NCBI GenBank assembly: GCA_023055425.1 | Contig: JALGPY010000003.1 | Location: 75,119,491 to 75,183,490, forward strand | DNA from: Linanthus parryae | Lineage: Eukaryota > Streptophyta > Magnoliopsida > Ericales > Polemoniaceae | Direction: 5' to 3' | Length of the DNA: 64,000 bases | In this document: piece by piece, positions 4,877-64,000 of the stretch | How the letters are laid out: each line of letters starts with the position of its first letter | Position numbering within the stretch: position 1 is the stretch's first letter | Notes under the pieces: generated by a model | What the model was told of the DNA's origin: nothing | The model's input: only the letters and a program-made list of their open reading frames with translations | Databases searched by the model: none | Translations under genes and position numbers: made by a program

Positions 4877-4877
4877 T

Positions 4878-4890
4878 GCAAGTGGGAGAC
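4878..4890 (+). other. Polypurine tract of element A
   Basis: The purine-rich run CAAGTGGGAGA abuts the TG of the 3' LTR. It is repeated in copies B (11150-11162) and C (63034-63046, minus). It primes plus-strand DNA synthesis in reverse transcription. Confidence 0.75.
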
Positions 4891-6319: not shown

Positions 6320-7667
6320 ATATTTGCACAAATATGTGAATTTGACGATTTATAAGCCTAAGAGTCAAAAGTTGTGTTTCTAGCTTATTTGCGCATGTAT
6401 TCTCTCATATTTGCGATGATAATTGCACGGGTAGTATTTTGTTGTGTTTCTCAGGTAAAATAGGTTCAATGGAGCTTATGATAGGCTTGGATACACTTGG
6501 TATGGAGCTAGATGAAGAGGAGAAAAGAAGAGGCAAAGACGAAGAAAAGTTGAAAAACTCACTCCTGACCAGCCTGTAATATTTTCGATGCTCAGGAAAA
6601 TCTATACATAATTTGGGAGAAAGGCCTGCGCCATTTTAAAGTAGACATCCAGAGCTTTCCAACGATATATGGTAGGCCCGAATACGAGTCCGGATGAGGG
6701 AGATACAGTCCGCGCAAAATCAGCTTACAATTCTGTCCGGGAATTACAAACCGGAGGGGCTGAAGTGCAAATTCGGCCAAAGTTCATTAAAAAACGTGCC
6801 CAGGCCTTATGAAACGACTTCTCAGACCTAAAACAAGAACGACTCTGCTGGAGGAAGGGAGGAGACAGCTCCCAAGCCATTCGAGAGCTCGGATTCCCGT
6901 CGGATCAAGGATTCATCGTTTGATCTCTCTATCTCTCTTGTTTTTGATGAATACTTGGAACTTATTCGTTGTATTCCCAACTATGAGTAGCTAAACTTTT
7001 TTCCTATTCGGGATATCTCATAGGTAGCAAGGGTTTGAACACCATGTTTGTGATTTATGGATCTTTTTCATGCTTTTAGCTTAATTGAATGTGTTTTTCT
7101 TAGCTATGCTTGATTTATGTACTTAATTCTATCGTTTCTATTGTTTGAGCTCTCAATAGGATGATTATAGGTATGGGATGTTAGAGGAATCAACATTCTC
7201 TACCCGGAAACTTGAATCAAGCACTAGCCGTATCTAGGGTTGAGGAATCTTGCTAGTTAGCTAGAACTAAGAGTAGACCATAACAACATAATGCTTATTT
7301 GAACTTGAGTAGGCTAGAGGAATCAGGTACAAGAGTTTGAATATAGGCTTTGGTTGAGGAATCTTCAAAGCATAGGTGCTTGTTTGACTAAGTAAAAGAC
7401 GTTCGTGTTTCTTGAACATAAATCATAAGTGGTGTGAGATCCCTAGTGAACCCGAAGATATATCCTGATACTTGTCCCTCGTATTAATCTCACTTTTAAT
7501 AATCAGTTTGTTATTTAAATTATTAGTTTAATAAAACAATCCAATTGCTTGCCCACACGAAGTTAGTCATCCTAATTAATTCACGACAAGTCCCTTGGGT
7601 TCGACAAACCCGGATTACCGGATATTACTACACGCGACACCCGTACACTTGCGGTTGGATCGTGTCA
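6320..7667 (+). repeat. Gypsy-type (Athila/Tat-like) LTR remnant
   Basis: This block lies between LTR A and the truncated gag of copy B and has no coding frame. It resembles LTRs of Athila/Tat Gypsy elements in layout: a stretch on 'agagctttccaacgatatat' near 6650, a run of short repeats built on 'gaggaatc' (7193, 7240, 7318, 7353), and a GC-richer end 'cttgcggttggatcgtgtca' (7648-7667) before the copia sequence resumes. The right end (CA at 7666-7667) abuts copia gag, which suggests a solo LTR inserted into copy B. The left end is not resolved and no target duplication could be matched. Confidence 0.45.
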
Positions 7668-10600: not shown

Positions 10601-11148
10601 CTTAAGTACATGAGAAGAACTAAGGATTCGTTCTTGATATTTGGAGGTGAGGAAGAACTAAGTGTAATTGGTTACACTGACGCGAGCTTCCAAACTGACA
10701 AGGACGACTACATATCGCAGTCGGGCTATGTGTTTTGCCTGAGAGGAGGAGCTATGAGCTGGGAGAGTTCCAAGAAAGAGACAATTGCTGATTCTACAAC
10801 TGAAGCTAAGTACATTGTTGCGGCAGGCGCATCAAAGGAAGCTGTTTGGATTAGGAAGTTCATCACCGAGCTTGGTGTGGTTCCTAGAATTCTGGATCCC
10901 ATTGCGTTGTATTGTGACAACACTAGGGCGATCGCACAAGCCAAGGAGCCCTGGTCACACCAGAATCCAAACACATACTTATGAGATTCCATCTTATTCG
11001 AGAAATCATCGATAGAGGATATGTGAAGATATGCAAGATTCCAACGGACAATAATATTTCAGATCTACTTACAAAGTCGCTTGTTCAGCGCAAGCACGAT
11101 AGGCACACTAGATCTATGGGCATACGATATGCACCAAATTGGCTCTAA
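7668..11148 (+). pseudogene. Degenerate Angela-type gag-pol, copy B (5'-truncated)
   Basis: The homology to copy A begins in mid-gag (MIRYMDNLQRLGFPFGQE, around 7677-7730) and runs to the end of RNase H, with the stop at 11146-11148. The zinc knuckle is changed to CHYCSKTDHWKRNC. Integrase (about 8520-9360) retains LRSDHGGEYL, the RT box YVDD is at about 10164, and RNase H retains TDASF and DNT. Many stops and frameshifts are present; the protease region (8090-8200) is badly scrambled, the gag N-terminus is missing, and a T-run at 9448-9458 breaks the linker after integrase. It diverges far more from A than C does, so it is an older relative rather than a recent copy. Confidence 0.85.
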
Positions 11149-11162
11149 AGCAAGTGGGAGAC

Positions 11163-12561
11163 TGTTGGAGTAAATGCCATAGAGGCAATCTATATTTAGT
11201 ATGAACATTGTTTGGCTGGAATATTCATTTATTATTATGGAGATATTTAATATAATGAAGTCCTTAGATTACAATGTGTTGTTTATCTTAAATATCCCTA
11301 GTCCATTATATTGATTAACAGGATGATCACTATAGACTAATGTGTGGGTAGATTGATATGGAGATATCAAGTCTAACACATGGGTATGCATTAGGAGTAA
11401 TGACATACTAGATTGACCCACAACAAGAAGGCTACATTAGATTATGTCAATGTCACAAGTGCTTCTCGTAGTGCTAATGGTGTTGTAATCCATAGACTTG
11501 AAGTCACTAGATACTCTAGTTGTAAAATATCATATTTTGATATTATCAAACGTTACACCGTAAATAGGTAACTATAAAGATTGTCATCGGGCATGATAGG
11601 AATCAAGCTTAGAGATGGTAGTGATGTAGAGAGGATTTGTGCCTCCCACATAATGGGAGAAAATATCCATGGCCACTCGAGGGGTAGTGCTTATGAAATG
11701 TCTGGCCAGACTCGGATAAATCAATATGGGGTTATTGATGTTATCTTTATAGATAAGTCTATTCACAGGATCGAGAAACTATGGATTGTATATACCAGTG
11801 TGAAAAATATGTCTAGTGTCCAATACGGATATGGAGACAAAGGGATATATACAACGCGGTAACATTGGGCGCATGGTTTGTCAGGATCACTAAATTTTCT
11901 ATGAGTTGGGTGGCATAGATGTGCTGCTAGACACCGATCTATGTTTGTAATTGTTATTACCAACTAAGTAGAAAACCATAGAGTCACGCACCTTATGGAT
12001 TAAACTGGATTTGGATATTAATTAGTAGGACTAATTAATCAAAAGGATCAAAACACAACCACAAGCAAAGTTAGTAGGACTAATTTGCAAGGTGAACTAA
12101 TCCGTGTATGGACATGATTAATATTGGGAAAAATATATAGTTAATAAAGATTTATTAACTATATAAGAGCAATACTAGCTTACTATTTCACAAGAGAGTC
12201 ATTATTGTGTGAAATAACAAAGCAAGGAGAGAGACAGACAAGGAGGCCGAAGCCACCCGTCCGCCCCCCAGGTGCCGTCGGCCATCAGAGGCGCTCGGCC
12301 CTCCGTGCTCTGTTTTGCGTTATTCTTCTACCTCCTTCTTCCCTATGCTATCACTTGACATGGAGGAGGATTCCAGCTACAATCCAAGGTGTGGATACTC
12401 GTAGAGACGAAGACACAATTCTTCGTAGTGATCACACAAGCTAAGGTACACAATTCGTTTACTCTCATCATGTTATGAATGCTTGCCTGCGATTCGTGGA
12501 GGGTTTTGATCAGGATTTATTTATTTATATTCTACTGTGTTACCTGCATCAAAATCCTACA
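11163..12561 (+). repeat. 3' LTR of Angela-type element B (about 1399 bp)
   Basis: It starts TGTTGGAGTAA after the polypurine tract CAAGTGGGAG and ends AAATCCTACA, aligning with both ends of LTR A. Internal blocks also align (the shared phrase 'aatataatgaagtcctta'), but the sequence has diverged heavily, in keeping with the decayed coding region. Confidence 0.75.
12160..12167 (+). promoter_or_regulatory. TATA box of LTR B
   Basis: TATATAAG lies at the position that matches the TATA box of LTRs A and C. Confidence 0.45.
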
Positions 12562-45104: not shown

Positions 45105-45179
45105 TTGGCATCATAGCTTGTATCACTGCATAGATTTAACCATCTTGTGATTATGAGTACCGTAGGTGATGGTGGTTTC
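45105..45179 (+). pseudogene. PBS-like site and first codons of a second SIRE gag, cut by an insertion
   Basis: TTGGCATCATAGC (45105-45117) is the PBS with two changes. ATG at 45153 opens MSTVGDGGF, which matches the first codons of the gag at 37374 (MSNVGDGGF). The spacing from PBS to ATG is also conserved (48 and 50 bp). The frame is cut at 45179/45180 by the LTR of the next element. Confidence 0.7.
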
Positions 45180-48100
45180 TGTAACACCCCCGATTTCCAG
45201 AGGATCCGGAAATCGGTTGGTGCCCTCCGTACAGGGGATTTTACCCTTTCGTACAAGGAGTGGTAACAACAAACAAGTGAAACGAAACATCCAACTACTG
45301 ATTCATTATGATAAAAGTTTATAACATTTGTGACTGGTTCCAAACTGGACATCGAGTCTAACAAAACATATTTTACAACAAAAAGGCTCTCCGGTTAATT
45401 AGTAGGCTCTACTGTTTGCATGAGAGAACGAATTCGTGATCCCACCGCGTTACCCCAAGCAACCAATCATATACTTGCGGGGAATTTCAATATACACAAG
45501 GACGCAATTTTCGAGTATCAGTAAAAACTGAGTGAATAAACACCTTAGCATGTAAAACAGAGTGACTAAGATAGGTTATTGGGTTTACGTTTGAAATAGT
45601 TTGAACAGTAGCAGAGTGGAAGTATAAACTTCAAATAAAGAATTGAACTGTTTTCCAAAATATAAGTACGAGTAGGAGTGACGATTATCTGAGTTCTCAA
45701 AAGTACTATTTCCGAATCGAAAGTTATACGAGTGGCCAATTCGTTTATCAATATTTCCATGCGTTTCCAAACGGAAAATGGAACGAGTCATATTATTAAG
45801 TCGCAGTAACCAGGGTAGACCAGGGTAAATAGAAAAAGATGATACTGGCATCTAGGGGGTTATGATAACCCAACCTTTTTACCAAGCGTGAAAGACGATT
45901 CCAACCGTCCCGCTAGTCATCATACAAGCAGCTACTAGACCTTAAGTGTCGGCATCCCCTTAAGATTGTAAGTCATAAGAGTAGTACTAAAATGCTGGAC
46001 TCTCACCAACAAGGTGAAGAGACGAGGCACGGAGTCCCCAACTTAAAGTAGGTCCAAGACTCCAACAAGTAGTCAAGGCATTCTACCAAATAAATAATTA
46101 CAGCCGTAGCCAACTTAGTAACAAGCGACGTAGGCGTATAGCACTGTCACATACCCAAATGGTTCTGGTACTTGCAATTCTTTCACTTTACGTTATTAAT
46201 GAATTCTTACTGTGTGACATTTGAACAATTAGTTATCAAAGTTTGAATACGAGTAGTAAAGTGGGGATTTAAATAAAGTAAAGCACGTTTAGCAAATTTG
46301 CAAGGCTAAGCACGTAAAATCGCATGTATATTTTAAGACACGAAATAAAATCGCAATTTGACACGAAAGAAGGTAAGAACGCAACACCAAGGATGAATAC
46401 TCACCGTGAGAGCCGAAGATACGCTAGCAGATCTTTACTCCTACACTACGCCTGGTTCTTCAAAGACAGGCTCTATAAACAAACACATATAGTCCTAATT
46501 ACAAGCAAGTTTGGTTTGCAAACGTATGACAATGCACATGTCCTATTTGATATGCAAGCGACAACTTTAATCAGATTCCCCCAAGGTAGTTATAAAACCA
46601 TAAACGATTCTTAAGAATTCAAAAATCAATAATAAATTTTAAGGAGATGAAACTATTTAATACTCTAATGACGATATTTAGAAATTATACAAAAACTGAA
46701 TTTCAATTTAAAGTAATACTTATAATTTCAAAAGTGCTATTTCTGATTGAAGAAGAAATTTCTTTATATTTCACAATTATATTTTAATTTACAAAAATTT
46801 ACTTTACTTTAATAAAAATTAACTAAACTTATCTATCTATTTGTAAAAAGGATAACATCGATTTTTATAAACACTTCAAAGCTCACTATTTACTTAAAAT
46901 GAATTTAAAAATTATTTAATATCTAAAAGAATAGTATTTACCGATAATATAATTAAACGTATAGAAACATTATATTTTCATTAACTTAAAAATAATTTTA
47001 AATGTTGAAAATGTAACTTACGCTAATTTGTAAAGAAAATTACATAAAAAAAGATTTTATGTTTATTTATTAACTTAATATATAACTAGTAAAGTTTATA
47101 TAATATATACACAATTTAATTTAATTAATAATATTAAATGAAACAAGTTATATGAAATACAAATAGCTCACCTAAGTTTTCATAATGTACAATCAGTCTC
47201 CCCTAGTTTAAGAAAAAAGACAAAATAACCCCCTGAAATAAACCCACGACAATTCACTGATTCCACCCATCTCCTACTTCGATCAAAACATGATTTGAAG
47301 CTATAAAAATTGGATTTTTGACAATCAAGAATGAATGAGGACGTGATTTAGAGCATACCCACGCCAGGAAATGCGAGAAACGACGGAGAAACGGAGCAGG
47401 TCGAGTTCCCGTCGGCGGGTTCGGCGACGAGGTTTCGGCAGGGAGTCTCCGGCTATCTTAGGGCTTGTATCGGAGGCTATTCATGCTCCTTGGGTGTTCT
47501 AGAATGTGGAGAGGGCGAGGATACGAGCTGGGTATAGCTTGGTTTGTTGGGTCCGAACTGTTGGCCGAAAAAAAATGGAGTTCGGCCGGTGGTGATTGAG
47601 CTCAGCTCCTGTTGCTACTGCTGCTCGCTGCTTCTGTTGTCTTCGGGGAGCTCAGAGAGAGGGAGAGAAATGGCAGAGAGAGCAGGAGGTGATGGGTTAT
47701 AGGTGGTGGTGATGTTCGGTAATGGTGGTGGTCGGTGGTGTTGGTGTCGGGGGTTGTTGTGGCCGGTGGTGGTCCGAAAAAACAGGGGGGGGGGGGGGGG
47801 AGAGAGTGAGACAGAGAGGTGAGAGAGAGAGAGAGCAGAGTGATGTTGGTGGTGTTGGTTGTTCTCGACAACAAAACATCGAGGGAGAGTTGAAGGTGAA
47901 GAAGAAGAAGAAGATGGAGAAGATTAAGAAGGTGAAGAGGAGGAGGTGAGGGATGATGTGATTAGAGAAGAGCTAGGTTAGCTAGTTGGTGGAGGAGAGC
48001 CACGCTTGGCGTGGTAGTCGCAAGGAAGGGTACGGAGGTGTGGGCGGCTGAAACAGGGGAAAGCAGAGAAAAAAGAAAAAAATAAAGTGATGGAAGAGAG

Positions 48101-48807: not shown

Positions 48808-49640
48808 TCCTCCCCCACTTCGGACTGAGCTTCGTCCTCGAAGCTCGAATGGTTTCTATTAGACTCTACGGGTTCTAATACGAAGTGAAAGGTAGGGTGA
48901 TCGTAGATAGGAAGCGTATTCGTCTCCATGTTGCATGCTGCTTCCTCCTCTATCTGATTCATCGCAATATTTATCCGTATGGCCTCTGGTCGTTACACTA
49001 AGTTGGTTCCTTCCATTTCGGTTGGCACATTGCTTTTGGTGGTGTACCATGATTGCCTATTAGACAAGCGTCTTATACTAAAGCCTATCAATTTGAATGG
49101 TAGGGGTATGCAAACTGGTAAGATATGAATTGATGCGCAGAAAATGGTTCTAACCGTGCAAAAGGACATTATATAAGCATATACGCAATAGTATTTAATC
49201 ATATAAAAGACTCGTCGAAATTCACGAAATTTGACAATATGATTCTCACAAACCAAAGATCATATATGAGGTGCGAATGCACTACCAGAAAATATCACAA
49301 AAGCAAGGGTAAACGCTGTTAAGTCATGTAAGAAAGAACACATAGCATTTCAAGACCAAGGATGAGGGTGGGTGGGATAGACCCCCAGTCAGTGACTGGT
49401 CATTCGAACATGTATAAGAACTAAGGATTGAAAATGGAATGAGAGTAAAGACAAGTAGCACATATCAGTTAGGCATGCGAGGATAAACAAGAGACATAAC
49501 CCAAAATCCCCGGCTATTCAGATTTTACTTCTCAGTTTGTCTTGCCCATCGATTTCAACTTCAAGTTCAAAATTAGCTTTAATTACTTTCAAAAATCTTA
49601 GTTTTATGTGTTTTCTCCCTACAGTCCTGCTGGATGTCAC
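48808..49640 (-). pseudogene. Tiny interior of the long-LTR Gypsy element with a pol 3'-end relic
   Basis: Only 833 bp separate the 3' purine tract from the PBS, far too short for gag-pol. On the minus strand, 48808-48962 ends with NHSSFEDEAQSEVGEDV, in the place and style of the very end of a chromovirus pol. No RT, integrase or gag motif is present. The element is therefore a deletion derivative (LARD-like) that could only move in trans. Confidence 0.55.
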
Positions 49641-49654
49641 TGCTCTGATACCAA
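49641..49654 (-). other. Primer binding site of the long-LTR Gypsy element
   Basis: On the minus strand TTGGTATCAGAGCA lies one base inside the 5' LTR, which ends GGTGTTACA. It fixes the element's orientation as minus. Confidence 0.8.
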
Positions 49655-49655
49655 C

Positions 49656-50058
49656 TGTAACACCCCGATTTCCAGAAGAGCCGGAAATCGGTTGGTGCCC
49701 TCCGTACGGGGGATTTTACTCCTTCGTACAAGGAGTGCTAACAACAAACAAGTGAAACGTAACATCCAACTACTGATTCATTACGATTAAAGTTTACAAC
49801 ATTCATGACAGGTTCCAAACTGGACACCGAGTCTAAAAAAACATATTTACAACAAAAAGGTTCTCCGGTTAATTAGTAGGCTCTACTGTTTGCATGAGAT
49901 ATCGAATTCGTGATGCCACCGTGTTACCCCAAGCAACCAATCATATACTTGCGGGGATTTAAAAGAAACACAAGGACGCAGTTTTTCGAGTATCAGTAAA
50001 AACTGAGTGAATAAACACCTTAGCATGTAAAACAGAGTGGCTAAGATAGGTTACCGGG
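49656..50058 (-). repeat. 5' LTR (partial) of the long-LTR Gypsy element, split by the Tat insertion
   Basis: About 400 bp match 45180-45575 at roughly nine bases in ten by eye. The match stops abruptly at 'ggttaccggg' (50049-50058), where the Tat LTR begins. The rest of this LTR should lie beyond the window. Confidence 0.8.
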
Positions 50059-50963
50059 TGTGTACGAGAGAATCCTTTAGGGAGAATTCAATATACACCA
50101 GGAGTAGAGGATTGGAACACAGGAAGAGTAGGGTTGTGTGTAGGGAGAGAGTAAGACAATAGCACTGTATGAGAGAGAAAAAGAATTTTGGCAGAGCTTC
50201 CGCGTAGTTCAGGTGATTCTCCCTTGTATGGAAGGGTTAATGATCCTGTATATAACGGAGAATGTGAACGTTGTAGTGGGTTAATGCGCCCATTAATGGC
50301 GGCTTAATTAGCTTAACCACAACGGCACGTTCGTCCGCGTATATAGGGACCGTTACGCACGTTAACCGCGTATATCGGAACCGTTATGAGGTTGACCGGG
50401 TTTATGGAGCTCGTGCCATAAATCTCTCAAAGCAGTTACTAGGGGTCGCGCGCGGGCTTGGTTGTCGCTCGCGCGCGACAGGACTTACTCTAGCCTCCAA
50501 ACCACTAAGTCCCTACAAGTCCCGTGTGGTGGTATGCGAGGGCCCTGTCTCGCAGCCCCCACATGGATCAGCGCGGGTGGTGATCCTGTGTGTGTGGAGC
50601 ACAGCTAGGTGTGCTAGATGATCGCCACATGACTAATATCTTCCTGTCTAGAAAGCACTATATACATTAGCCCCCTTTCTGCGCGTGAAGACACATAGCC
50701 GGATGGGCTTCAATGCGCAGGAACCAATGTACGCGTCGCCGCCACACACCAATTCAAATACACGCAAAATCAGCCCCCGTGCGTGCCATTATGACCTAGA
50801 ATCCCTAGAGTCGTGCCGTCTGCTCTTTTAGGGTTTTAGGCATGACGTCAGCTTGTCCTGTGATTGCGCGATTCGACGGTGACGGTTGCGATTCGACTAC
50901 TGAAAGGACGCGACTCCTCATTGTTTTGGATAAGTACTCTGTGCTCTCCATTGTTGCAAATCA
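50059..50963 (-). repeat. 3' LTR of minus-strand Tat-type Gypsy element (about 905 bp)
   Basis: The left boundary is set by the break in the host LTR and starts TGTGTACGAGAG. The right boundary is proposed at TTGCAAATCA (50954-50963), followed on the minus strand side by a purine-rich AGAGAAAGAAG (50968-50978). The interior is GC-rich with CG-rich runs such as CGCGCGCGGG (50449-50458). It is related to the LTR-like block at 17615-18513. The 5' LTR is outside the window, so the length is not confirmed. Confidence 0.62.
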
Positions 50964-51422
50964 TTACTTCTTTCTCTAAAGTGAATGATACCCGGAAGCC
51001 TTCAAGAACATACTCAAGTGATCAATCATAAGTTCTTCCTTGTCAATCGTCTCCTTCAACTTGCTTCATCAAAACAAGCTTTACCAAAACAATGTTGTCT
51101 TTGTTCAATTCCATTTAATGTACTCAAATATTCTTTGAACTGTCTTGGATCTGTAAACCCATGGTTATTTGGGATATGTCGTTCATTGAGAACTGCAAAA
51201 GAGGCCTTTTTCTTAAACCCAGAACCGATCGAATTACCAGATTGTGACAATTTTGAATGCAGAACTTCTGAAATTCTGAGCAATATAGACGAATTCTGAA
51301 CTTCTAAACCCAGAATTGACCCCGGACTGTTCATCTTCTCTTGACAAAAACATAATTGCTTCTCGAGATTCAAACTAAAAGTGTGTATACTTATCCCCCT
51401 TTTTTCTTGCTCTTCTGCAGGA

Positions 51423-54400
51423 ATGGCCAAGACAAAAGGATCCAAACCCATTAAAGAGGCCGAAGAAATACCTGATCTTCCCCAGACCTTGTGGCGAAAA
51501 GCCCCTTATTTGGGTGGAAAATATTTCTATCATGCTAGGGTTAGGGTGAAGAATCTACTGACTCCTGTTTCCTCCAGAGAATTGCGAACATTCACCCCGC
51601 CTGTCAATGCAGCCATGCTAGAGTTAATCGACTCCAAGGATGTGATTAGGTTAGGAGTTGAAAATGGGTTTTCCCCCATACTGCAATTTCTACCCAGGCG
51701 TTTGTCCAAAAATTGGACTTCATGGATGAGTGGATCGACCATGTACTGACCCACCATGCCATCGTATTGAACAATGCTGGTATTTATTTCGCAGTTCGTG
51801 CTATGAAGGGTGCTGCCGTGAAGTTGGATCCGTCCATGCTTCTAAACCTTCTTTCTCGCTATTCATGTGCGACTCATACCTTCCACTTTTCTGAGTTCGA
51901 GGCTGCTCCCACTTTGGAGGATGTGCACATGTTGTATGATCTTTCTCCCATTGGTGCGGTGGATCCTCTGAGCCCTTTGAGGACTGATCCAGAACTTGCT
52001 CTATACAAGCAGATGGAGGAATGCCTGTCCGAGGTAAAGAAAATCTCTACTCGGTGGACATCTGCGAAAGTTCTTCCCGACTGGCAGCTTGTTGATCCAT
52101 CTGCGAAGAACACATGGGGCAAATGGGTGCAATACTTCTTTCGCGACTATGCGAGTAGTAGTATCACCAAGAAACTTCTGGACCAGAACCCAAAGGCGAA
52201 AAATTATGTAAATGGGAAGGGGTACCATTTAACCTTGTGCGGCTTCCTCTGTGCCTGGTTGTCAAGGTACCTGATCGATTGTCACCCTCATGACGGGGTT
52301 TTTATCATGTCCTCCATCTTGTTGTGAAGTTGGCCCTCGGCCAGAGAGTCGCACTTGGGCCTTTGGTCTTGGACACTCTATATCACAGATTGGACCAATT
52401 AGTAGTGGCGATCAAGGACTCTCGCAGTCGTCTTAATGTGCTGACTTATGTTAACATCGCATTCCTGACTATGTGGGTTTTTGAGCGATGGCCCTCCTAT
52501 GCTCCTGTTCCTTCTAGGCCCAACAAGTGGTGTGTACCAGGTGCGGAGGATGAACTTTCCAGTGGGAGAGCTGCTCGTTGTTTTAGAACCAATCCTCCCA
52601 AGTGCACCTGGAGCCTGATATGCGATGACCGAAGCAAGTTTACGGCTAGGCCCTATTCCACGCGTATTGAGAATGTGTGATGGTTCCCGAAGCTGTATCC
52701 CGCCAAATCTCTTGCTTTTTCAGAAGAGCTCCTTTTTGAAGGTCATGAGCGCTTTCATGAGCGCTATCGCGAATTCTTCTGCTGGTGTTTAAGGGTTTCT
52801 CTCCCTGCTCTTGCTGAGTATGTTCTTGAGCTTACTCCCAGGTATGAAAGGATCACAGTCGACATTGATCCAACTCGCGTTTCTCCCCAGTTTGGCTTTG
52901 ATGCAGTGGCGTCCTCCGTGTGGCCTAGATCAATCGTGAGAGGCTGCTACAAGCGAATGTTGTCTGGTGAGTGCCAAACGATCTTCAGGAGCAACTTGCC
53001 CTTCGTTCAACCTTCAGGTGGCTGTGTAGGTCGCTTCTCCGAAAATTCGGTTGCTTACTGGACTACTCAACAGGCCAGGTTCGAGACGCAGTCGGCTCCT
53101 CAGCCCAGCAGAGCTCCTATAATCAAGAGGAATTCCTTCCCATTCCGTCCTAATTGCAGCTTGGATGACTCACAGTATGGCTGCTACTCCTTGTTGGATC
53201 TTGACAATCACTTGTGCACATCCACCATTCTTGATGAGAAGATGGCCGCGGTTAGGGATGGTGCTTCACATGTTATCAAATACAGCGAAGATTTTGCCAA
53301 GGTAAACAATTTCTTCTGTGCGTGTTAAACTCCTTTCCTTTGATGCACCGAAACTTATACTCCATTTTCTGTTTTAGTGCTATCTGAGGAGGTTTGCATC
53401 TGGAGAGCGCTCCAAGTCGCTGATCAATACTATTGTTGCTGCGAGAAGGCAGGGCGAGAAATTCTGCTAACAATGGGAATGTCTCCACCAGTAGAGGCTC
53501 GGATTCGCGAGGTGATAGATGCATTTGCTGACTCGCTGATAGATAATACCCCGGCTCCGTCTCCTCCCAGGGATGCTCCTTCCTCTCCAGCAGATGTTGC
53601 CCCGAGGGCGAAGAGACAAAAGTAGAAGGGTATTGCAATCTCCTCTCCTCCTAAGAGTGCTCCAGCTTCATCTCCTGTGAAGTCTCTTGATTCTAAGGAA
53701 AAAGGCAAAGGTCGCATGCCAAGCAAAGGAAGGAAAGAGCTCGAAGTTGAGACTTTTGCTCCTTTTGGTCAGGAGGAAGAGGAGGATGAGAGGAGAGAAG
53801 TGAGAGGAAGAGATGATGATGAAGAAGAAAGAGTCGAAAGTGAAGAAGAAGAAGAAGAAAGAGGTGAGATACAAGAAGAAGATTTGAAAGGTATCTCAAA
53901 CTTATTTTCTTTGTACTTTAGCTTTTACAATAGTTGTTGAACAGTTTGTTCTTTCACAGATGATGATACAGAAACCATCAGCGGCCTCTTGGCCAAGAAA
54001 AAGAAGAAAACCAAGGGTTCTCACTCTGGCGCTTCCAGCGAAGCCATAGACGCAGATATCCTTGATGAGTCTGAAAGAACGGCTGTAGAAGCCGCAGAGA
54101 GAAGAATGAAGCGAGAAGAAGATGAGATTGAGCTCATAAAGAGGAGAAGTTTAGAAGAACAGCATGTTGATGACTTTGCGGAGCAAGTTGATGATGTAGA
54201 TGCGACTGCTTTGGAGCAAGCTCAAGCCGACTTTGAGGAACTCGCATGTGGCAAACAAGGTGAGATTTTTAACCTTGCTGTATCTTACCAAGAAGTGATT
54301 ACTGGTGCGTTAAAGCATGGCTTATCAAAAGCTGATATTCGCCGATGGCTAGTAAGCAAGTGTGGTGAACCCTCAGGTAATCATTCAAGTAATGTTTGTA

Positions 54401-55751
54401 AACCAGGCTTAGTAACCCAATCATCATTGTAATGAGTTTCTTTGCACCCCAGGTCACTCTCACCTTAAAGATGTGCTTAATGAAGATACCCTAGTAGGAT
54501 ATGGTGTCGCATCTTTAACATATGATGAAGGTGCTGTGATCCCACCTAAGTGTGGGGATGCTCGCTTTTGATCTATTAAAATAACAAAACGCTGTGTGAT
54601 ACAAGTTACCTCACTATTTTCTGTCTTGTATCGCAGGCGATGCTGAAGAGGATGTGCCGGAACAGAGAGGTCAACCCCCTGCATCTTATGCTCCAGAGCG
54701 AAGCCCTTACGTTGAGAAGCCTGTTGCAGCTACTGAGTACGCAGGCGAGCCTTTGGAGGACATCATTGAGGTGTTTGATGATATCGAAGTTGACACCGTG
54801 CTAAGAGAGGAAGATGCCGATGCTGCAGTTGAGGAAATGGAAACAGATGGTGCTGGAGATGAAGTTCATGAAAATGAACAAGTCATGGAAGACACAGCAT
54901 TGCATGCAAATGTTGATGTCTAGATGAATGCTCCCGAGCCACAAGAGCCCCTCGCAGCCGAAGAAGTTCCTAGTCGAGTAGCAGCTACTAATGTTGCCAT
55001 TCCTTCAACAGAGGTAGAGCTTCCAGAGGTTCCCCAAGCATGGAGTTTTTGGAGCTCGCAAGTTGGAGCTGCTGTCGTGCCTGTTGCGGCCTATAATCTT
55101 CCCGCCAACTATGAAGAGCTCGAACTCGCGGCTGATAGACGAGAAATGGAGCGAGGACAGACTTCAGCTTTTCCAGCAATGCGCATTCCCTCCTTGCGTG
55201 AAATCCTTGAAGGGACAGGTATGTTACCGTTTTTTGCATTCTACACCCTTATTTAAAAGCTTTCATGCTCTAAGCTTGAATCAAATTTGTCAGGATTGAA
55301 GCAAGCTGATGTGGACTGGCTGATTCAGATGCGCCTCTCATACCCCTGGTCGTTCGCGAGATCTCTAAAGATAGAGCCGTATGACAGGAGGATTTTCTTG
55401 ACCGAAGCCATCTGGATTCTGGAGCAACTGTCTATAGCCACTCCTGCGACCATTTCTCCTCATAGTGCACAACTGCTTTTTAGCACATGCCAAGGGCTTC
55501 AAGCTAAAGTTCAAGGCAAGCTGGGCTTCGGGTATCTCCTCAACAGAATCACCCAAATTCGTGCAGCTGTGAATTTGAAACGCGGCTTCCACAACCTCGC
55601 ATCTGAGAGACGAAAGGTAGAGGAACAAAGGCAGAATGCTGAAGAAGCTGTCAACCTCTTTCATGCGATGAATGCTAAGTACGAACAGCTGAAGCGAGAA
55701 GTGGACCAAGTAAGAGAGGCATCACTCTCGTTTTCCCAGAAAACCCTTTGA
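51423..55751 (+). pseudogene. Antisense spliced PMD gene inside the Tat element (decayed)
   Basis: The start is ATG 51423 (MAKTKGSKPIKEAEEIPDLP). The exons are 51423-53301, 53378-53890, 53960-54376, 54453-54530, 54637-55218 and 55294-55751. All five introns (69-106 bp) are GT-AG; the first is phase 0 and the other four phase 1. The first exon is a plant mobile domain: DFMDEWIDHVL, AGIYFAVRAMKG, LCGFLCAWLSRYLID, TYVNIAFLTMWVFERW, FFCWCLRVSLPAL, and the closing DPTRVSPQFGFD. Then follow Pro/Ser-rich, very acidic (Asp/Glu runs near 53775-53875) and Lys-rich linkers, and a C-terminal coiled coil (near 55600-55730). Damage: frameshifts near 51680, 52318 and 53470, and stops at 52678-52680, 53623-53625 and 54921-54923. 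PMD extra ORFs are known in Tat elements. The function is unknown; DNA-transposon ancestry is proposed. Confidence 0.8.
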
Positions 55752-56777
55752 TCAAGGATTTATTTTAGAAACAAAAATATTTGTTTGAAACAAAATATTA
55801 TTGTAATCCTAGTGCTTCTCCCCCCCCTTTTTTTTATCTGGATCTCTATGTCCCGTTTTGCCCTTTTGGGGATTTGCACGAATGTTTTGATGCGTATCAA
55901 TTATGACGTCACATAGCGACGTACCTGCCTTGATTTTCGCGCTAATGATTTATTAGATAAGCACTATTTCCTTGGGAAGCCCATCCTTACTATGACCTTC
56001 CGTCATTAATTAGGGCGTGCCACCGAATCGTCATAGCCTTTAGTAGGGTAATTGAATTTTACCTCTTTTGAGACGTAAGTAATTGATTCTTACCCGTTTT
56101 CCAAGCTTTGTTGACTCAGCTGGGGAACTGAAGAGTCTCCCCAAGGTCTATATAAACCCTGCCTCTTGCTGCTTGGGTTCTTCATCCCAAAATGTGGCTT
56201 GCCATGAGTCCTTACGACTGCTGGCTTCAATGCTTTTTTTTGTTGATTCATGGAAACTTCAAGTTGTGAAATCTGAGTTTGTGCCTTGTGCCATAGAAAT
56301 AGCTCCCAAGATCTTTTTTATAAAGCTTAGTGATCTTTATTCCACTTTGAAGAAGATATACATAATATCTCATGTTTGTACGAAGATTCTTCTTCATCTA
56401 TCATGTTTGCAGGTCGTATCTCCGGCTGCCCTCCGGCGAGGTGCAGTTCCATACTGACCTTTTTACCAACTCGTAATGAATGGAGTGTTTCTACTCTAGC
56501 TTTCCTGGAGGAGAACTATTTGCCTCCACGTTCTTGAACTAGGGGTAACGAGCCATGTCGCTCGTCTCCGTGGACAATAAGCTTTCTGCCCCAGGAGCTG
56601 TTCTCCACTTGTTCTTCACCGCCGCATCCGCCTGGACATGGGGTTCATCTGGCACATATCTTGGGCAGAAGACCAGTCAAGAGCCTTGTTCATATCTAGG
56701 ACCTCGACGCTAGCGTCGCATAGCTTTTTGTTAGCAGTTGTAGGCCGTTCATTTTATAGTAGGAATTTTCTTACTAT
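55752..56777. other. Non-coding spacer between the antisense gene and the Tat tandem repeats
   Basis: No frame is convincing. On the plus strand it forms the 3' flank of the PMD gene, with a T-rich run at about 55821-55838. On the minus strand it belongs to the long 3' region of the Tat element. Confidence 0.5.
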
Positions 56778-56943
56778 GAGCTTTTGCTTGTAAAGCGCTA
56801 TCTAGAAAGATAAATCGTAAGTCATTTTGACTATTAGTGAAACGTGCTTTAGCTCAGTATGAACTTTCGCTTGTAAGCTATTATCTAGACAGATAAATTG
56901 TAAGTCATTTTGACTGTTAATGAAATGCACTTTAGTATTTGTT
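56778..56943 (-). repeat. Two-unit 83-bp tandem repeat in the Tat 3' region
   Basis: Units start at 56778 and 56861, share 'gtaagtcattttgact' and variants of 'gctatctagaaagataaat', and differ at about one base in eight. The 'tatctag-agata' core is also the core of the next array. Confidence 0.7.
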
Positions 56944-57108
56944 GTTCTTGTTTGATACAACAAATTGTAATATCGCATGCGTGCTGGCTATAAAACAAGT
57001 TATGTTTCTTTTCGCCTTTTGCATTTGGATGTTCGCCTGAATAATTCTTTATTTCAAGCTTGATAAATTTCTCATTCGCACAGGGCGTTGTTACTATAGC
57101 TTGCTATC

Positions 57109-57490
57109 TAAGCAGATAGGCTTACAGATCAGTTAAGATCACTTCTGTCATCTCGACATATGGGCTTTGGATCGCATGGGATCGTGTATTATGGCTGCTA
57201 TCTAGGCAGATAGGCTTTTGGCTCAGTTAAGATCATATATCATGGCTGCTATCTAGGAAGATAGGCTTTTAGATCACTTAAGATCGCATTTGAACTCTGC
57301 TGCTATCTCGGCAGATAGGCTTTGGATCGCATAGTATCATACATTATGGTTGCTATCTAGGCATATAGGCTTTTAGATCATTTAAGATCGTTTTTGAACA
57401 TTGCTTCTATCGCGACAGATAGGCTTTGGATCGCATAAGATCGCGTATTACGGCTGCTATCTTGGCAGATAGGCTTTTGTTGTAAATAAA
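57109..57490 (-). repeat. Seven-unit minisatellite in the Tat 3' region (50/54-bp alternation)
   Basis: Units built on GCTGCTATCTAGGCAGATAG start at about 57109, 57194, 57245, 57299, 57349, 57403 and 57453. From 57245 the spacings alternate 54, 50, 54, 50, giving a 104-bp higher-order unit: one half ends in 'tttagatca-ttaagatcg', the other in 'ggatcgcat-agatcg'. Tat/Ogre elements are known for tandem repeats in their 3' untranslated region. Confidence 0.85.
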
Positions 57491-57538
57491 CAGAGAAGTA
57501 AATAGATGATAAGAGACGATTAAGGTAATAAAATTCTT

Positions 57539-57643
57539 CTCATATGGGAGAATTCTTTTATTACAAGCACCCTCATATGGGAGAGGCGAAATTACAAATC
57601 CCTCATATGGGAGAGGCAAGATTATGAGTCCCTCATATGGGAG
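57539..57643 (-). repeat. Four copies of CTCATATGGGAG near the pol 3' end
   Basis: Copies at 57539, 57572, 57602 and 57632, about 30 bp apart, each with the palindrome CATATG inside. The minus-strand frame through them reads repeated LPYEG, but this is probably fortuitous. Confidence 0.8.
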
Positions 57644-57719
57644 GAAACAGCGCATGAATCTATCACAGTAGACATACTTTTCAATAGACATCTGAATCCG
57701 ATGTATGTAAAGAGAGAGT

Positions 57720-60700
57720 TTAAGGACAATGCTTTTTAATCCAGCGCATATTGACTAAGCTTGGGGTTGTGGCAGTCCCATGAAGCCTCTGCATTTTGCA
57801 GTAACCACTGTCAAAGACTTCTTTAACTTCGAATTGTCCTTCCCAGTTAGCTGCAAACTTTGGGTGAGCTGCCTCCCGCATGCAATGATCTGAAGCGCGC
57901 AAAACCAGGTCCCCAATCGCGAAATCTCGATGTTGGACTGTTTTGTTGTATGCGCGAGCGATCCTTTCCTTGTACCGCTTGTTAGCCCGCTTAGCTTGCT
58001 CTCGCTTCTCCTCCAACAAGATCAAGTCGTGGTCACGTTGATTGTCGTATAACGCATGAAAAGCCAATCTCGCAGATTTGACTTTCACCTCCGCCGGTAC
58101 AACGACTTCAGCTCCATAGCATAAAAGGAACAGGGAGACTCCTGTGGGAGTCCTCGGCGAAGTTCGATATGCCCACAATGCTATGTTCAAAGAATCAGCC
58201 CATCGCTTGTGATATTCTGCGACCATCTTGCTCAAAATTCTTAGTAGTGTCTTGTTGGTTGCTTCTACTTGACCATTCCCTTTCGGATAATAAGGAGTGG
58301 AACAGACCTGCCTTATGTTGTACTCTGCTAGTTTCGCGGCTACTTGTCGATTTACAAAGGGCGTGCCATTATCCGAAAGGATTGTGTTGGGGATTCCGAA
58401 CTTGCATATGATGTTTTCTTGAACGAAATTCACCACTGCGAGCGCATTAGCTGTCTTGAGCGGTATTGCCTCCACCCACTTAGTAAACAACTCAGTTGTA
58501 GTTAGAATGAATTGGTTCCCATGTGAGGCCGGTCGAATGGGGCCGAAAAAATCTAGAGCCCAAGTGTGGAATGGCCATGGCGTCCCCAATGCATGCAGGT
58601 CTACGGAAGGGGCATGTACGAGGTTGCCCTTGAATTGACATTCCTGGCATCTCCTTACTTTGGTGCGACAATCTGCCTCCATCGTTGGCCAAAAATAGCC
58701 AACTTTGAGGAGCTGTCTGCATAGCTTCGCGCCCCCTTGATGCTCTACTTGATGAGATAGATCTATCACCTCTTGCGCTTCTTTGTTATCTAGGCACCGA
58801 AGTAGATTACCTTCATGACCCCTTCGCCATAGTATGTTTTCTTGTACCACATATCGGGCTGCCTTTCTTTTAAGTTTCTCGGCTTCTTTCCTTTGCTCAG
58901 GCTCGATTCCTTCTGTGAGGAAGTCGAAGAGTGGCTTTCTCCAGTCCGTGTCATCATTGACCAAAGCGATTGTCAGGGAATCCTTGATCAATGCGTAACT
59001 TTCATAATTCCCTTGAATTATCGCCGTAGCCGTTGTCATATCGGGCCAATGAATCCCATATCTTTGGGCTTTCCGATAGATTGACACCTCACTTTCTCCG
59101 CAAGTGTGCTGGTGAATCTTTTCTAATAACGCTTGTCCTTCCTGCTGCGAGACGCATCGCATGAGTATTCCTCCTGGGCCTTTGTAGTAGAGGGCGTTAT
59201 CATGTATGCAGTACCCCTTAGTGGATGCCCAGTTTTCTTTGCTCGTTCCTTCGGCTATTGCGTGCAATATCGGTTTTCTCCAGTCTGCATCATCCATGGA
59301 CTCGTCCTCGCATGCGTCCTCCGTCAATGCCGGTACATTCAGACTTCGATTGAGATTCTCACAGGGCAGTTGTACGCACTAACTTTGGATCCCAAAGTAG
59401 CTAAAGCGTCAGCGTACCGATTATCTGCTCTAGGTGTGTGTTCGTACCTAACATCGCAGAATTGTTGTACCAGCTTCTGCACCAAAGTCCGATAGGGTAA
59501 CAGATTCACCTCTTTCAATCCGTATTCCCCCGAAGCTTGTTTGACGATTAACTTGGAATCCCCCATAACTGTCAGATTGCTTACTTCCAATGCCCTGGCC
59601 GCACGGAGACCTGCGATATGAGCCTCATACTCCGCTTCATTGTTGGTCACTGGGAAGTCAAGTTTTGTGGACATTTGGATGACCTCTCCATCTGGTTTAG
59701 TCAAAACGATTCCAATTCTTCCACCTTTCCTTGTGGACCATCCATCAAAATGAAGTGTCCAGTAAGGTAACTCGACTGCATAGATCTCGGGTCCCTCTAG
59801 TTCCTCCTCGATCATGGGATCATAGCTGTTATCCGGAAACTGTGCCAGAAGATCCGCCACTGCTTGCGATTTGATTGCTCGTGGTCGAACACACGTGATG
59901 TCGTATTGGGAAATGGTCATATACCACTTTGCCAATCTTCCTCCGGGAGAGGTGTGAGTCAAGAGATACCGTATGGGGTCACTCTTTGTAACCACCACAA
60001 CTTTGTGCGAGGCGAAATAGTGCTTCAAATTTTCGATGACGAAAAATAAGGCAATACAATGGCGTTCGATATCTGTGTACCTTGATTCAGCCGGTTGCAC
60101 TATGCGAGAAATATAGTAAATCGGCCTTTCTTGCCCTTCATGTTCTTGAGCCAAAAGCGCCCCTATAGACTTCTTTGTCGACGTCAGGTACAACAGAAGC
60201 GGCGATCCAATCTGCAGTGCGATCATTAATCTTGACGACGTCAGCAGATCCTTTAGCTTCCCGAACACAACCTCATGTTCCTCTGTCCAATTGTACACAA
60301 CATTCTTCTTGAGAAGATCGCTAAAGCAGAAGGTTATTTCGGCGATTGCTGGGATGAATCTCCGCAGGTAAGATAATTTCCCCAGAAATGTCTTCAGAGT
60401 ACTTTGATTGTGTGGCACCGTCATGCTTGTGATAGCTGATACCTTCGCGGGGTCAGGCTCGATGCCCTGGCGATGTATTACGCATCCCAAGAACTTCCCT
60501 GAAGTCACTCCGAATGCGCACTTCATGGGGTTCATCTTTAGCTGGAAACTCCTGCATATTTCAAATACTTTACGCAGGTCCCCCAAATGGTCTGTTTCCT
60601 CTTTGGACTTGACAACTAAATCATCAACATAGAATTCCACTTCCTGGTGCATCATGTCGTGGAATAGAGCCATCATTTCTCGCTGATAGGTCGCGCCTGC

Positions 60701-61604
60701 GTTCTTGAGCCCGAATGGCATAACCGTGTAATTAAAGACTCCCACCGGCGTGATGAACGCGGTTTTCCGTGCATCCTCAGGGTCCATTTTGATTTGGTTG
60801 TACCCACTGAAACCGTCCATGAAGCTGAACATTCGATGACCCGCGGTAGAATCAATGAGCAAGTCGATGTTGGGTAACGGAAAATCATCCTTGGGGCAGA
60901 AACGGTTAAGATCTCTGAAATCTACACAAATGCGAAGCTGCCCATTCTTCTTCACCACAGGAACAATGTTAGCCAACCATGTGGGATGATGGTTCGGCTC
61001 GATGAACCTAGCATTCAGCAGCTTGACGATTTCTTGCTTGATTTTCACATTTATCTCCGGCCTGAAGCTTCTCGTGCTTTGCTTTACTGGTTTAGATCCT
61101 GGGATAACATCTAACCTGTGCATAGTGATGCTCGTGTCCAAACCAGGCATTCCATCGTATTCCCAGGAAAATACATCTTTGTACTCAGTCAGCAGCTCTA
61201 GCAACCTCGCCTCTTCATCGCTTGTGAGGTCTGCGCTCAAAAAGACGGGTCTCTTCTTTTTTTCTCCTGGGCTTAGGAACACTTCCTTCAGATCCTGCTT
61301 CTGAGGTTTCGGCTTATCCTCCATGCATTCAGGAACTTCTTTAAGCTTTTCCTCTGAAACCTCTAATGTTGGTTTGACCTGCTCAACTTGATTGATTTGC
61401 CCAGAGATATCCCCATGTTCGAATGGGGGTACCCCCGCACACCTTCATATGCGGTAAAATTTCTTTCCATTGGAGTAGAAACTTTCTATCTCCTTGCCTG
61501 CGAGATCATGTTTCATCACTCTCTTCAGAGTGTACACGTTCTTTCTTTGATAGGCGACCCGCGGTGTCTCTTCGTGTGTGGACAACTTTTCCTTAGCATC
61601 CTCC
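57720..61604 (-). pseudogene. Tat-type Ty3/gypsy pol: RT, RNase H, extra RNase H, integrase (5' end cut off)
   Basis: On the minus strand, the frame from ATG 61324 to 59339 (661 aa) holds RT (ICVDFRDLNRFCPKDDFPLP; catalytic FYVDD near residue 233) and the usual RNase H. It also holds a second, archaeal-like RNase H (LHFDGWSTRKGGRIG, NNEAEYEAHIAGL, MGDSKLIVKQ), the hallmark of the Tat lineage. After one single-base frameshift at about 59340, integrase runs to 57720: a His/Cys finger (HQVEHQGG to CQECQ), then D in WALDFFGP, D in LSDNGTPF and E in GNGQVEATN. Upstream of 61324 the frame continues to a TGA at 61445-61447, beyond which KRVMKHDLAGKEIESFYSNG is readable. The Angela insertion at 61605 then cuts it off. 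Gag and protease are outside the window. The lesions visible here are that frameshift, perhaps the TGA, and the insertion. Confidence 0.9.
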
Positions 61605-63033
61605 TGTAGGGTTTTGATTCATGGATCGCGCAAACGGAAGCATAATCAAACAAACAACCATGCAAAACCCTCCAAGGATCACAAGTCTAGATGCATAACG
61701 ATAGTGAAGGTAAGAAATCATAAACACACCTTTGGGTTCTCCTTGATGACTTCAAACGCGAATAGTGTCACGTTCTCTATAGTTGATCCACGCCTAGAGT
61801 TGCTCCTAGATCTCCCTAACTCCTTGGTGCTAGCCCGGAATGAGAGGAGGGTGAAGGAATCACGCAAAACGAGACAAAAGAGGGGCTCGGCCCTCTTTTT
61901 GGCCGACGGGGTGAGGGGGCGGCGGCAAGGGTCGGGTTCGGCCCTTGTTGCTTGCTCTCTCTCTCTCCTTGTTCTCTCCCACTCTTGTTATGATCTCTAA
62001 AGAGCATAAGTTATGAGGAAGGAAGGAAGGAGGGTCCTTTATATAGTCCAACAACTCCTTGTTAACTACCTAAAGGACTTATTCTAGTCCAACTAGAATT
62101 CAATTTAGTCCCTTCCTTGCAAATTAGTCCCTACTAAGTTTGCAAGGGTTTGCAAAGTGATCCTTCTAATTAATTAATCCAATTAATTAATTCCAAATCT
62201 AGTACAACTCTATATAGCGTGTGACCCCATAGGTTCTATCTAGTTGGTAGCAACTATTTGCTAATATGGAGCGGTTTCTAGCAAAACATCCATTCTAGCC
62301 AACTAATAGAATAGTCATCTAGACAACCTTGTACAAGTAATTGTCTCATCCCTTTGCCTCCATATCCGGATAGGACACGAGACATACAAGTCACACTCGT
62401 ATATCCAATCCCTAGTTTCTCGATCCATGGAATAGCCTTATTCGTGCAAATAACATCAATATCCCATATTGATTTATTAGAGTCTGGCTAGACATTCTAT
62501 AAGCACTATCCTTCGAGTGGCCTAGGATATTTGCTCCCGTTATGTGGGAGGGGCAAATCCTCTCTACGTCCACTACGATCTCTAAGCTTGCTTCTCATTG
62601 TATCCAGTACACGCCTTTATAACTACCCAGTTACGGTGTAGCGTTTAACGCTACCAAGATCACAATGATCCACAACTAGAATATCTAGTGACTTCAAGTC
62701 TAAGGATGACAATACCATTGTACCCGAGAAGCACTTGTGACTTAACATAACATGTATGTAGCCTTCTCGGTGATGGGTCAATCCAGTGCAACATTCCGTA
62801 ATGCACACCTATGTGTTGGATCGTGATATCTCCATATCAATCCAACCCCATACTAGTCTATAGATGATTGTCCCATTAATCATTATACTTGACTAGGGAT
62901 ATTTAAGATAAACAACACGATTGTGAATCTAAGGACTTCATTATATTAAATATCCAATAAATAATAAATGAATTTTCTAGCCATATACAAATTCATACTA
63001 AACTAGATTGCCTCTAGGGCATCTATTCCAACA
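61605..63033 (-). repeat. 3' LTR of Angela-type element C (1429 bp)
   Basis: Reverse complement of LTR A with identical end points (minus strand TGTTGGAATAG to CCCTACA) and identical length. It is inserted in Tat pol. Confidence 0.92.
62037..62045 (-). promoter_or_regulatory. TATA box of LTR C
   Basis: TATATAAAG on the minus strand, at the same place as in LTR A. Confidence 0.6.
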
Positions 63034-63046
63034 GTCTCCCACTTGC
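63034..63046 (-). other. Polypurine tract of element C
   Basis: On the minus strand GCAAGTGGGAGAC lies directly before the LTR, identical to element A. Confidence 0.75.
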
Positions 63047-63047
63047 A

Positions 63048-64000
63048 CTAGAGCCAATCTGGCGCATCTCGTATGCCCATACTCCTAGTGTGCCCTTCAT
63101 GCTTCCACTGCGTGAGAGGCTTTGTAAGCGGGTCTGACAGATTATCATCTGTAGGAATCTTGCATATCCGAATGTCTCCTCTATCGATAATATCTCGAAT
63201 CAGGTGAAACTTCCTGAGCACGTGCTTGGACTTCTGGTGCGATCTGGGTTCCTTTGATTGCGCGATCGCCCCAGTGTTGTCACAGAACAACTTCACTGGA
63301 TCCGCAATGCTTGGAATCACACCAAGTTCAGAAACAAACTTTCTGATCCAAACAGCCTCCTTTGCTGCACCATTTGCAGCAATGTACTCAGCCTCTGTTG
63401 TAGAATCAGCTACCGTCTCTTGCTTGGAACTCTTCCAGCTCACCGCTGCTCCATTCAGGCAAAACACATATCCCGACTGTGATCTAAAGTCATCTCTGTC
63501 GGTTTGGAAGCTTGCATCAGTGTAACCCCTTACACGCAACTCTTCCTCACCGCCAAACATCAAGAAGGCATCCTTAGTTCTTCTTAAGTACTTTAGGATG
63601 TTCTTGACAGCAATCCAGTGACTCTCACCCGGATTGGATTGGTATCTGCTTGTCATACTCAAGGCATATGACACATCTGGTCTAGTACATAACATGGCGT
63701 ACATGATAGATCCTATGGCCGAGGCATAGGGAATCCTACTCATGCGTTCCTTCTCAATCTCGTTGGAAGGACAACCACTCTTCGAAAGAGTGATTCCATG
63801 TGACATGGGCAAGAATCCCTTCTTGGAATCTTGCATGTTGAACCGTTTCAACACCTTGTCAATATATGTACTTTGACTTAGGCCTAGCAACCTCTTAGAT
63901 CCTTCTCTATAGATCTTTATACCGAGTATATAGGCTGCTTCCCCTAAGTCTTTCATTGAGAAACACTTTCCTAGCCAATCTTTCACAGATTGCAGCATAG
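63048..64000 (-). CDS. Angela-type Copia pol, copy C: end of RT and RNase H (partial, runs off the window)
   Basis: The minus strand is open without a stop from the window edge to the TAG at 63048-63050, about 316 codons. It covers the RT end (MKDLGEAAYILGIKIYREGS), the connection, and RNase H with TDASFQTDRDDF, STTEAEYIAANG and DNTGAIAQSKEP. It closely matches copy A, but without A's TGA after the IYR segment. With matching LTRs, this is the best preserved element in the window. Whether it is intact depends on sequence outside. Confidence 0.88.
   Translation of the reverse strand, partial: MLQSVKDWLGKCFSMKDLGEAAYILGIKIYREGSKRLLGLSQSTYIDKVLKRFNMQDSKKGFLPMSHGITLSKSGCPSNEIEKERMSRIPYASAIGSIMYAMLCTRPDVSYALSMTSRYQSNPGESHWIAVKNILKYLRRTKDAFLMFGGEEELRVRGYTDASFQTDRDDFRSQSGYVFCLNGAAVSWKSSKQETVADSTTEAEYIAANGAAKEAVWIRKFVSELGVIPSIADPVKLFCDNTGAIAQSKEPRSHQKSKHVLRKFHLIRDIIDRGDIRICKIPTDDNLSDPLTKPLTQWKHEGHTRSMGIRDAPDWL

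Follow-up and report, generated by a model that had tools for sequence, protein, structure and literature searches.

The antisense gene and its family

The 64,000-nucleotide stretch of the Linanthus parryae genome analysed here (hereafter the window) carries on its minus strand a Tat-type (Ogre/Retand) long terminal repeat (LTR) retrotransposon. Between the pol gene and the 3' LTR of this element, and on the plus strand, lies a gene for a protein with a plant mobile domain (PMD). We put at about three in four the probability that an abundant Tat family carries a real, conserved and probably spliced antisense accessory gene, a figure that covers the whole of our preferred explanation, i.e., a promoter of its own, a spliced messenger RNA, a nuclear protein and shielding of the introns by the antisense arrangement. 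What is new is the conserved multi-intron architecture, since antisense genes as well as PMDs encoded by Gypsy elements have been described before. The original prediction, made from the window alone, had placed an intron-bearing gene antisense in a Tat element, and this was borne out by the minus-strand pol (57720-61444), the plus-strand PMD and the conservation of the gene in the family.

Related copies were sought in the window's own assembly (1.51 Gb, 121 contigs), with the 905-base segment 50059-50963, comprising the LTR and the region upstream of the gene, as the query. Among 5556 candidates, 40 matches were scored, all near full-length with 93-100% identity and including the window's own. 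The 39 other loci were fetched, and the 22 covering essentially the whole gene were aligned with the window copy (23 copies in total); the other 17 were omitted from the alignment as partial, interrupted, rearranged or gene-less. Of the 39 fetched 3' ends, 35 have at least part of the gene next to them, oriented as in the window; in loci L014, L033, L043 and L044 it is absent altogether. The query contained upstream sequence and thus favours 3' ends, so that 35 of 39 is no count over all LTRs. Absence of the PMD block from sister elements, which would have pointed to a chance insertion, is thereby refuted. Four of the 39 loci (L012, L015, L020 and L024) hold an extra LTR-gene unit of a divergent subfamily (73-79% identity), which follows the main unit in the same orientation, perhaps through nested insertion or recombination. 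These four units served as an outgroup and were compared with four main copies.

As modelled from these alignments, the family gene comprises seven exons separated by six introns and lies antisense between pol and the 3' LTR (Table 1). Five GT-AG introns of 69-106 bp had been proposed, one in phase 0 and four in phase 1. The phases held, and so did four of the introns (76, 69, 76 and 75 bp), whose ends are conserved among family members; the 106-bp intron was rejected, its donor GT at 54531 being present in just 11 of 23 copies, and the actual intron measures 79-85 bp. In the 22 other copies, the donor GT of introns 1, 2, 3 and 5 was always kept, and the acceptor AG was kept in 22/22, 20/21, 20/22 and 22/22 copies, respectively (21/22 for intron 4). 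For comparison, background GTs were retained on average at 66% (22 sites in introns) and 76% (199 in exons), and background AGs at 72% (10 in introns) and 82% (333 in exons); random background sites equalled the retention of the splice sites with P 0.001 for GT and 0.024 for AG. The ends of introns 1 and 2 were also conserved in the two divergent units that reach them. Another candidate donor for intron 2, at 53864, is a GT in 21 of 23 main copies but is absent from these two units, and was rejected. Where exon 3 differs in length between these two units and the main copies displayed, the frame is preserved, as judged by eye.

The five-intron layout proved incomplete at its 5' end, where a probable coding exon at 50985-51093 and the 327-bp intron at 51094-51420 (exon 0 and intron 0) had been missed. 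The gene most likely starts at 50985 and not at 51423 as first proposed. The acceptor of intron 0 is pyrimidine-rich and stands just before the ATG at 51423, and its phase-1 donor joins exon 0 in frame. Compared with the divergent subfamily, the donor context of intron 0 is unchanged in 4/4 units and its interior is just 57-65% identical. Exon 0 is open in all four units, and four main copies share a 15-nt loss in it that preserves the frame. Inside intron 0, positions 51130-51179 are 83% identical between subfamilies and the adjoining 150 bp just 47-56%; this block is a possible regulatory element. At the 3' end, the family stop lies near 55766 and not at 55751 as predicted. The window copy, with a late shift in exon 6, stops short of it, at 55749-55751.

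Table 1. Features of the Tat element and its antisense gene (window coordinates; L049 is another locus of the assembly)
Feature	Position	Strand	Remarks
Target-site duplication CCGGG	50054-50058		partner outside the window, L049 2638-2642
3' LTR, 608 bp, TG..CA	50059-50666	-	97.0% identity to 5' LTR at L049 2030-2637
Polypurine tract AGAAAGGGGGCTAA	50667-50680	-	adjoins LTR on inner side
Conserved non-LTR region, probable promoter	50667-50984	+	318 bp upstream of exon 0
TATA-like box GATAAATA	50929-50936	+	19/23 main copies, 4/4 divergent units; one difference in window copy
Exon 0, probably coding, start codon	50985-51093	+	in-frame TGA directly upstream; 109 nt in 4/4 divergent units
Intron 0, 327 bp, phase 1	51094-51420	+	GT 22/23, AG 21/23
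Exon 1, with PMD at about 51801-52919 (by position in copy L029)	51421-53301	+	broken in window copy
Intron 1, 76 bp, phase 0	53302-53377	+	conserved ends
Exon 2, acidic and basic low-complexity	53378-53890	+	broken in window copy
Intron 2, 69 bp, phase 1	53891-53959	+	conserved ends
Exon 3	53960-54376	+	
Intron 3, 76 bp, phase 1	54377-54452	+	conserved ends
Exon 4, end at 54551 or 54557	54453-54557	+	
Intron 4, 79 bp (85 bp with donor 54552), phase 1	54558-54636	+	donor 54558 is AT in window copy
Exon 5	54637-55218	+	582 nt in 17/23 copies; in-frame stop in window copy
Intron 5, 75 bp, phase 1	55219-55293	+	conserved ends
Exon 6, C-terminal charged region, probably helical (by eye)	55294-55768	+	family stop near 55766
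Tandem repeats between pol and antisense gene	57092-57643		periods about 51/104 and 30
pol: reverse transcriptase, RNase H, additional RNase H, integrase	57720-61444	-	RVT_1, RT_RNaseH, RVT_3 and rve matches
Younger Ty1/copia element nested in Tat element	61605-64000	-	runs past window end

Coding signal, protein and state of the copies

The distribution of variants across the aligned copies was analysed by codon position. Per site, variants shared by at least two copies numbered 0.200 (codon position 1), 0.135 (position 2), 0.489 (position 3) and 0.429 (intron interiors), while singleton variants were more evenly spread (0.378, 0.353 and 0.428 at the three positions, 0.480 in introns). The codon pattern of the shared variants together with the flatter singletons fits selection before insertion and near-neutral decay afterwards. 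Intron interiors evolve like third codon positions, and splice ends are near-invariant. The nonsynonymous rate (dN) was below the synonymous rate (dS) in all 253 pairs of copies over all exons, with a median ratio of 0.207, and in 252 or 253 of the 253 pairs for single exon sets (exon 0 not included in either). Against the divergent subfamily, exon 1 gave ratios of 0.067-0.111 in 16/16 comparisons (four main copies by four units), which are imprecise since dS is high (0.9-1.9); read in two shifted frames, for one pair, it gave 1.35 and 1.79. Exon 0 held 4, 3 and 10 shared variants at codon positions 1, 2 and 3 (35 codons, main copies), and its dN was below dS in 16/16 comparisons with the divergent subfamily over 31-36 codons. 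These patterns argue strongly that purifying selection kept the antisense gene of this family working as a protein gene.

The predicted family protein is long. Its N-terminal PMD is followed by a middle part rich in acidic residues and lysine, and its C-terminus is charged and probably helical. A profile search recovered the PMD on the plus strand: PF10536 matched two pieces of the window copy, one with E 1.3e-9 and 38.2 bits, above the gathering score of 34.9, and one with E 1.4e-6 and 28.2 bits, below it. In copy L029, in which exon 1 is open, the match reached E 6.8e-24 and 85.1 bits against the same gathering score. Transposase_28 (PF04195) had no match at E<=0.1 in eight pieces of the window gene (exon 2 not among them) or in exon 1 of L029. 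A search of solved structures gave one match, at E 0.92, judged to be due to chance.

The window copy is a pseudogene by its reading frames, as are all 23 aligned copies. Its exons had been described as joining in frame across every intron; we found exons 1, 2 and 5 broken and the donor at 54558 lost. Among the 23 copies, exons 0 to 5 are open in 15, 1, 6, 9, 21 and 7 copies, respectively, and the family stop of exon 6 is reached in 12. One of the divergent units, that of L012, likewise has an open exon 1.

Several points speak against a functional, spliced protein gene. None of the 23 aligned copies has all its exons open, so that no working copy was seen among them. For intron 4, either of two in-frame, phase-1 GTs six bases apart could be the donor, at 54552 (GT in 23/23 copies) or 54558 (21/23), and the acceptor AG of intron 0 is present in 3/4 divergent units and missing in one. 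Exon 0 is just 36 codons long and its dN/dS ratio is weaker (about 0.2-0.6), and it could therefore be partly leader. Finally, a protein database search with exon 1 of L029 yielded no relative at E<=0.001 among 7998 scored candidates; the gene model therefore has no independent annotation behind it.

The carrier element and neighbouring sequences

Pfam profiles placed RVT_3 between RT_RNaseH and rve in the reading order of pol. An additional RNase H at this place, after the first one and ahead of integrase, is the hallmark of angiosperm Tat elements (Ogre and Retand) (PMC6317226). An LTR pair, a 5-bp target duplication and a polypurine tract are also present, as expected of a Tat element. The LTR had been drawn as 905 bp (50059-50963). 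The 5' LTR in L049 is complete and matches only the first 608 positions of that segment, ending in ..CTACA followed by CCGGG, and a second LTR match, in L016, likewise stops at position 608. Because the 5' LTR ends at this position, CCGGG flanks both LTRs and the polypurine tract lies directly inside 50666, we rejected the 905-bp version and set the LTR at 50059-50666; the extra 297 bp are internal. In 14 of the 23 copies, a 22-base string around the polypurine tract that takes in the LTR end (50661-50682) has the same form; the other nine, the window copy among them, differ slightly. The primer site begins TGGTGTCCCCGACG. Lineage marks are mixed, as the PMD points to Ogre, and the LTR size and tandem repeats fit Retand.

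The LTR pair differs by 13 transitions and 5 transversions over 608 sites (K 0.030). At a substitution rate of 1.3e-8 per site per year, this places the insertion about 1.2 million years ago. The element is placed at the end of the right-hand copy of two direct repeats (45179-45578 and 49655-50053; 400 bp, 92.5% identical, 4.5 kb apart), and an uninterrupted paralogue of its target site lies in the window at 45560-45600.

Numbered as in the window, the nested copia element starts near 61605 and ends near 70100, and its LTRs are 99.4-99.6% identical. Beyond it, a minus-strand reading frame occupies the expected place of gag, with no Pfam support in the two pieces tested, and is followed by the 5' LTR. 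A second Tat pol fragment (L049 2650-4380), 96.9% identical to the window pol, starts a few bases past the 5' copy of the target duplication and runs up to another copia copy. Elsewhere in the window, two copia-type copies about 80% identical to each other follow in succession (1334-12092); the segment 3926-6319, within the first, matches the nested copia of the Tat element at 96% identity. Rfam gave no match at gathering scores over 49600-61600.

Promoter, alternative explanations and known systems

Between main and divergent copies (four of each), identity was 88.7% over the 318 bp upstream of exon 0, 89.5% over the LTR, 73% over exon 0 and 62.1% over intron 0; the main copies had been picked by similarity over the upstream stretch, the divergent units had not. 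The TATA-like box lies 49-56 bp before the exon 0 ATG, outside the LTR. In the window copy it is preceded by a telo-box-like TTTAGGGTTT and by a TGACGTCA motif. The original prediction had looked for a promoter in or near the LTR, but the segment then called LTR holds the 297 bp of internal upstream sequence, which is the better promoter candidate. For the antisense gene gene23 of the maize Grande element, transcription starts from a promoter upstream of the gene, and the product is a nuclear protein (PMC7264820). In line with that case, the conserved non-LTR region here, with its TATA-like box, suggests that the gene has its own promoter within 50667-50984, a better fit than an LTR promoter.

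We regard it as unlikely that transcription begins at an antisense promoter within the 3' LTR, which would then hold one more, non-coding exon. In its favour, the LTR and the upstream region are equally conserved (89.5% vs 88.7%), and HBZ, the antisense gene of human T-cell leukaemia virus type 1 (HTLV-1), has alternatively spliced transcripts that do begin in the 3' LTR (PMC1459196); the recurrent TATA-like box, however, stands outside the LTR, 49 bp before the ATG, and the promoter of Grande gene23 lies upstream of its gene (PMC7264820). With a promoter of its own, transcription would start about 25 bp before exon 0, the plus-strand messenger RNA would be spliced and the product would be a nuclear protein. 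The introns would persist because the genomic RNA of the element is the opposite strand and cannot be spliced at these sites.

The product could instead be the antisense RNA, which would pair with the genomic RNA and feed small-RNA control. Such a role has been proposed for genes of this kind (PMC7264820), and the transcript and the genomic RNA would overlap at the 3' end of the latter. An RNA role, however, needs no strong selection at the protein level, and we consider it improbable, although both could hold together. Genes with introns normally belong to the host, and plant LTR elements are known to carry captured genes (PMC7264820). That a single element acquired the gene by chance insertion or by recent capture from the host is nevertheless refuted by the presence of at least part of the gene, in one orientation, beside 35/39 3' ends and by a subfamily at 73-79% identity; we give such a recent event hardly any weight, and an ancient capture is possible. 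Descent from a PMD transposon with introns or from a host PMD gene, which would have entered an ancestral Tat element as DNA, is plausible, at somewhat less than even odds. The introns argue against arrival through spliced RNA, and the order of origin of genic and Gypsy PMDs has been called open (PMC5418596); the introns could, on the other hand, have been gained inside the element.

For the antisense protein, our best guess at a function, and a tentative one, is that it would help the element by interfering with the host silencing that depends on PMD proteins (the MAIN/MAIL1 pathway). Direct regulation of the element's own transcription is a possible but doubtful function. More speculative still is a scenario in which a host-style seven-exon PMD gene with its own promoter is carried as antisense cargo, its product would act as a decoy or rival of MAIN/MAIL1 and its intron positions would record the direction of origin between host and element. 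Anti-silencing has been suggested for the PMDs of Mutator-like elements (PMC5418596), and element-encoded PMDs have been suggested to counter silencing (PMC8616336). PMDs in general are described as confined to angiosperms (PMC8616336). Roles of such genes in silencing or mobilisation have so far been published as speculation (PMC5418596, PMC8616336, PMC7264820).

Several known systems share part of this arrangement. Like Grande gene23, the gene is an antisense accessory gene between pol and the 3' LTR with an upstream promoter region (a candidate here) and a product that is probably nuclear, but no PMD is reported for gene23 in the passages concerned (PMC7264820). That Tat elements may carry an extra PMD, as the original prediction stated, is documented by its occurrence in 57% of Ogre elements (PMC6317226), and the PMD-A clades are encoded by Gypsy elements only (PMC5418596). 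The family here is likewise a Ty3/gypsy element encoding a PMD; the passages on PMD-A and Ogre describe no conserved multi-exon antisense gene (PMC5418596, PMC6317226). In Retand, antisense open reading frames (ORFs) occur in all clusters studied, with TRP28 in 97% (PMC11963269). Our element resembles Retand in its long region between pol and the 3' LTR, antisense ORFs, tandem repeats and an LTR within 315-1194 bp (PMC11963269), and differs from Retand with TRP28 ORFs by the lack of a Transposase_28 match in the pieces searched. At about 7.05 kb, its pol also lies farther from the LTR than in any Retand element reported, for which the largest distance is about 6.6 kb (PMC11963269). Likened by description only, HBZ too sits antisense at the 3' end of its LTR element and is spliced and regulatory (splicing being predicted here, and regulation a possibility), but it starts in the 3' LTR, has two spliced forms and encodes a bZIP protein (PMC1459196). 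Arabidopsis MAIN and MAIL1 belong to the same PMD protein family; unlike the gene here, they are host genes acting in silencing (PMC5418596), and the element protein has further C-terminal parts.

The titles, abstracts and passages searched described no antisense gene with several introns in plant LTR retrotransposons, although the original antisense-ORF papers may mention introns; in PMC11963269, "intron" and "splicing" are absent and "spliced" occurs only in the title of a reference. Conserved intron positions offer a character, beyond sequence similarity, for the relation between host PMD silencing genes and Gypsy PMDs, the origin of which has been called fully open (PMC5418596), and the predicted junctions make a test on RNA simple. 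Retrotransposons are expected to shed introns on the genomic strand at every RNA cycle. A conserved multi-intron gene in this Tat family illustrates how antisense placement can let an element carry its own spliced gene, perhaps with a separate promoter.

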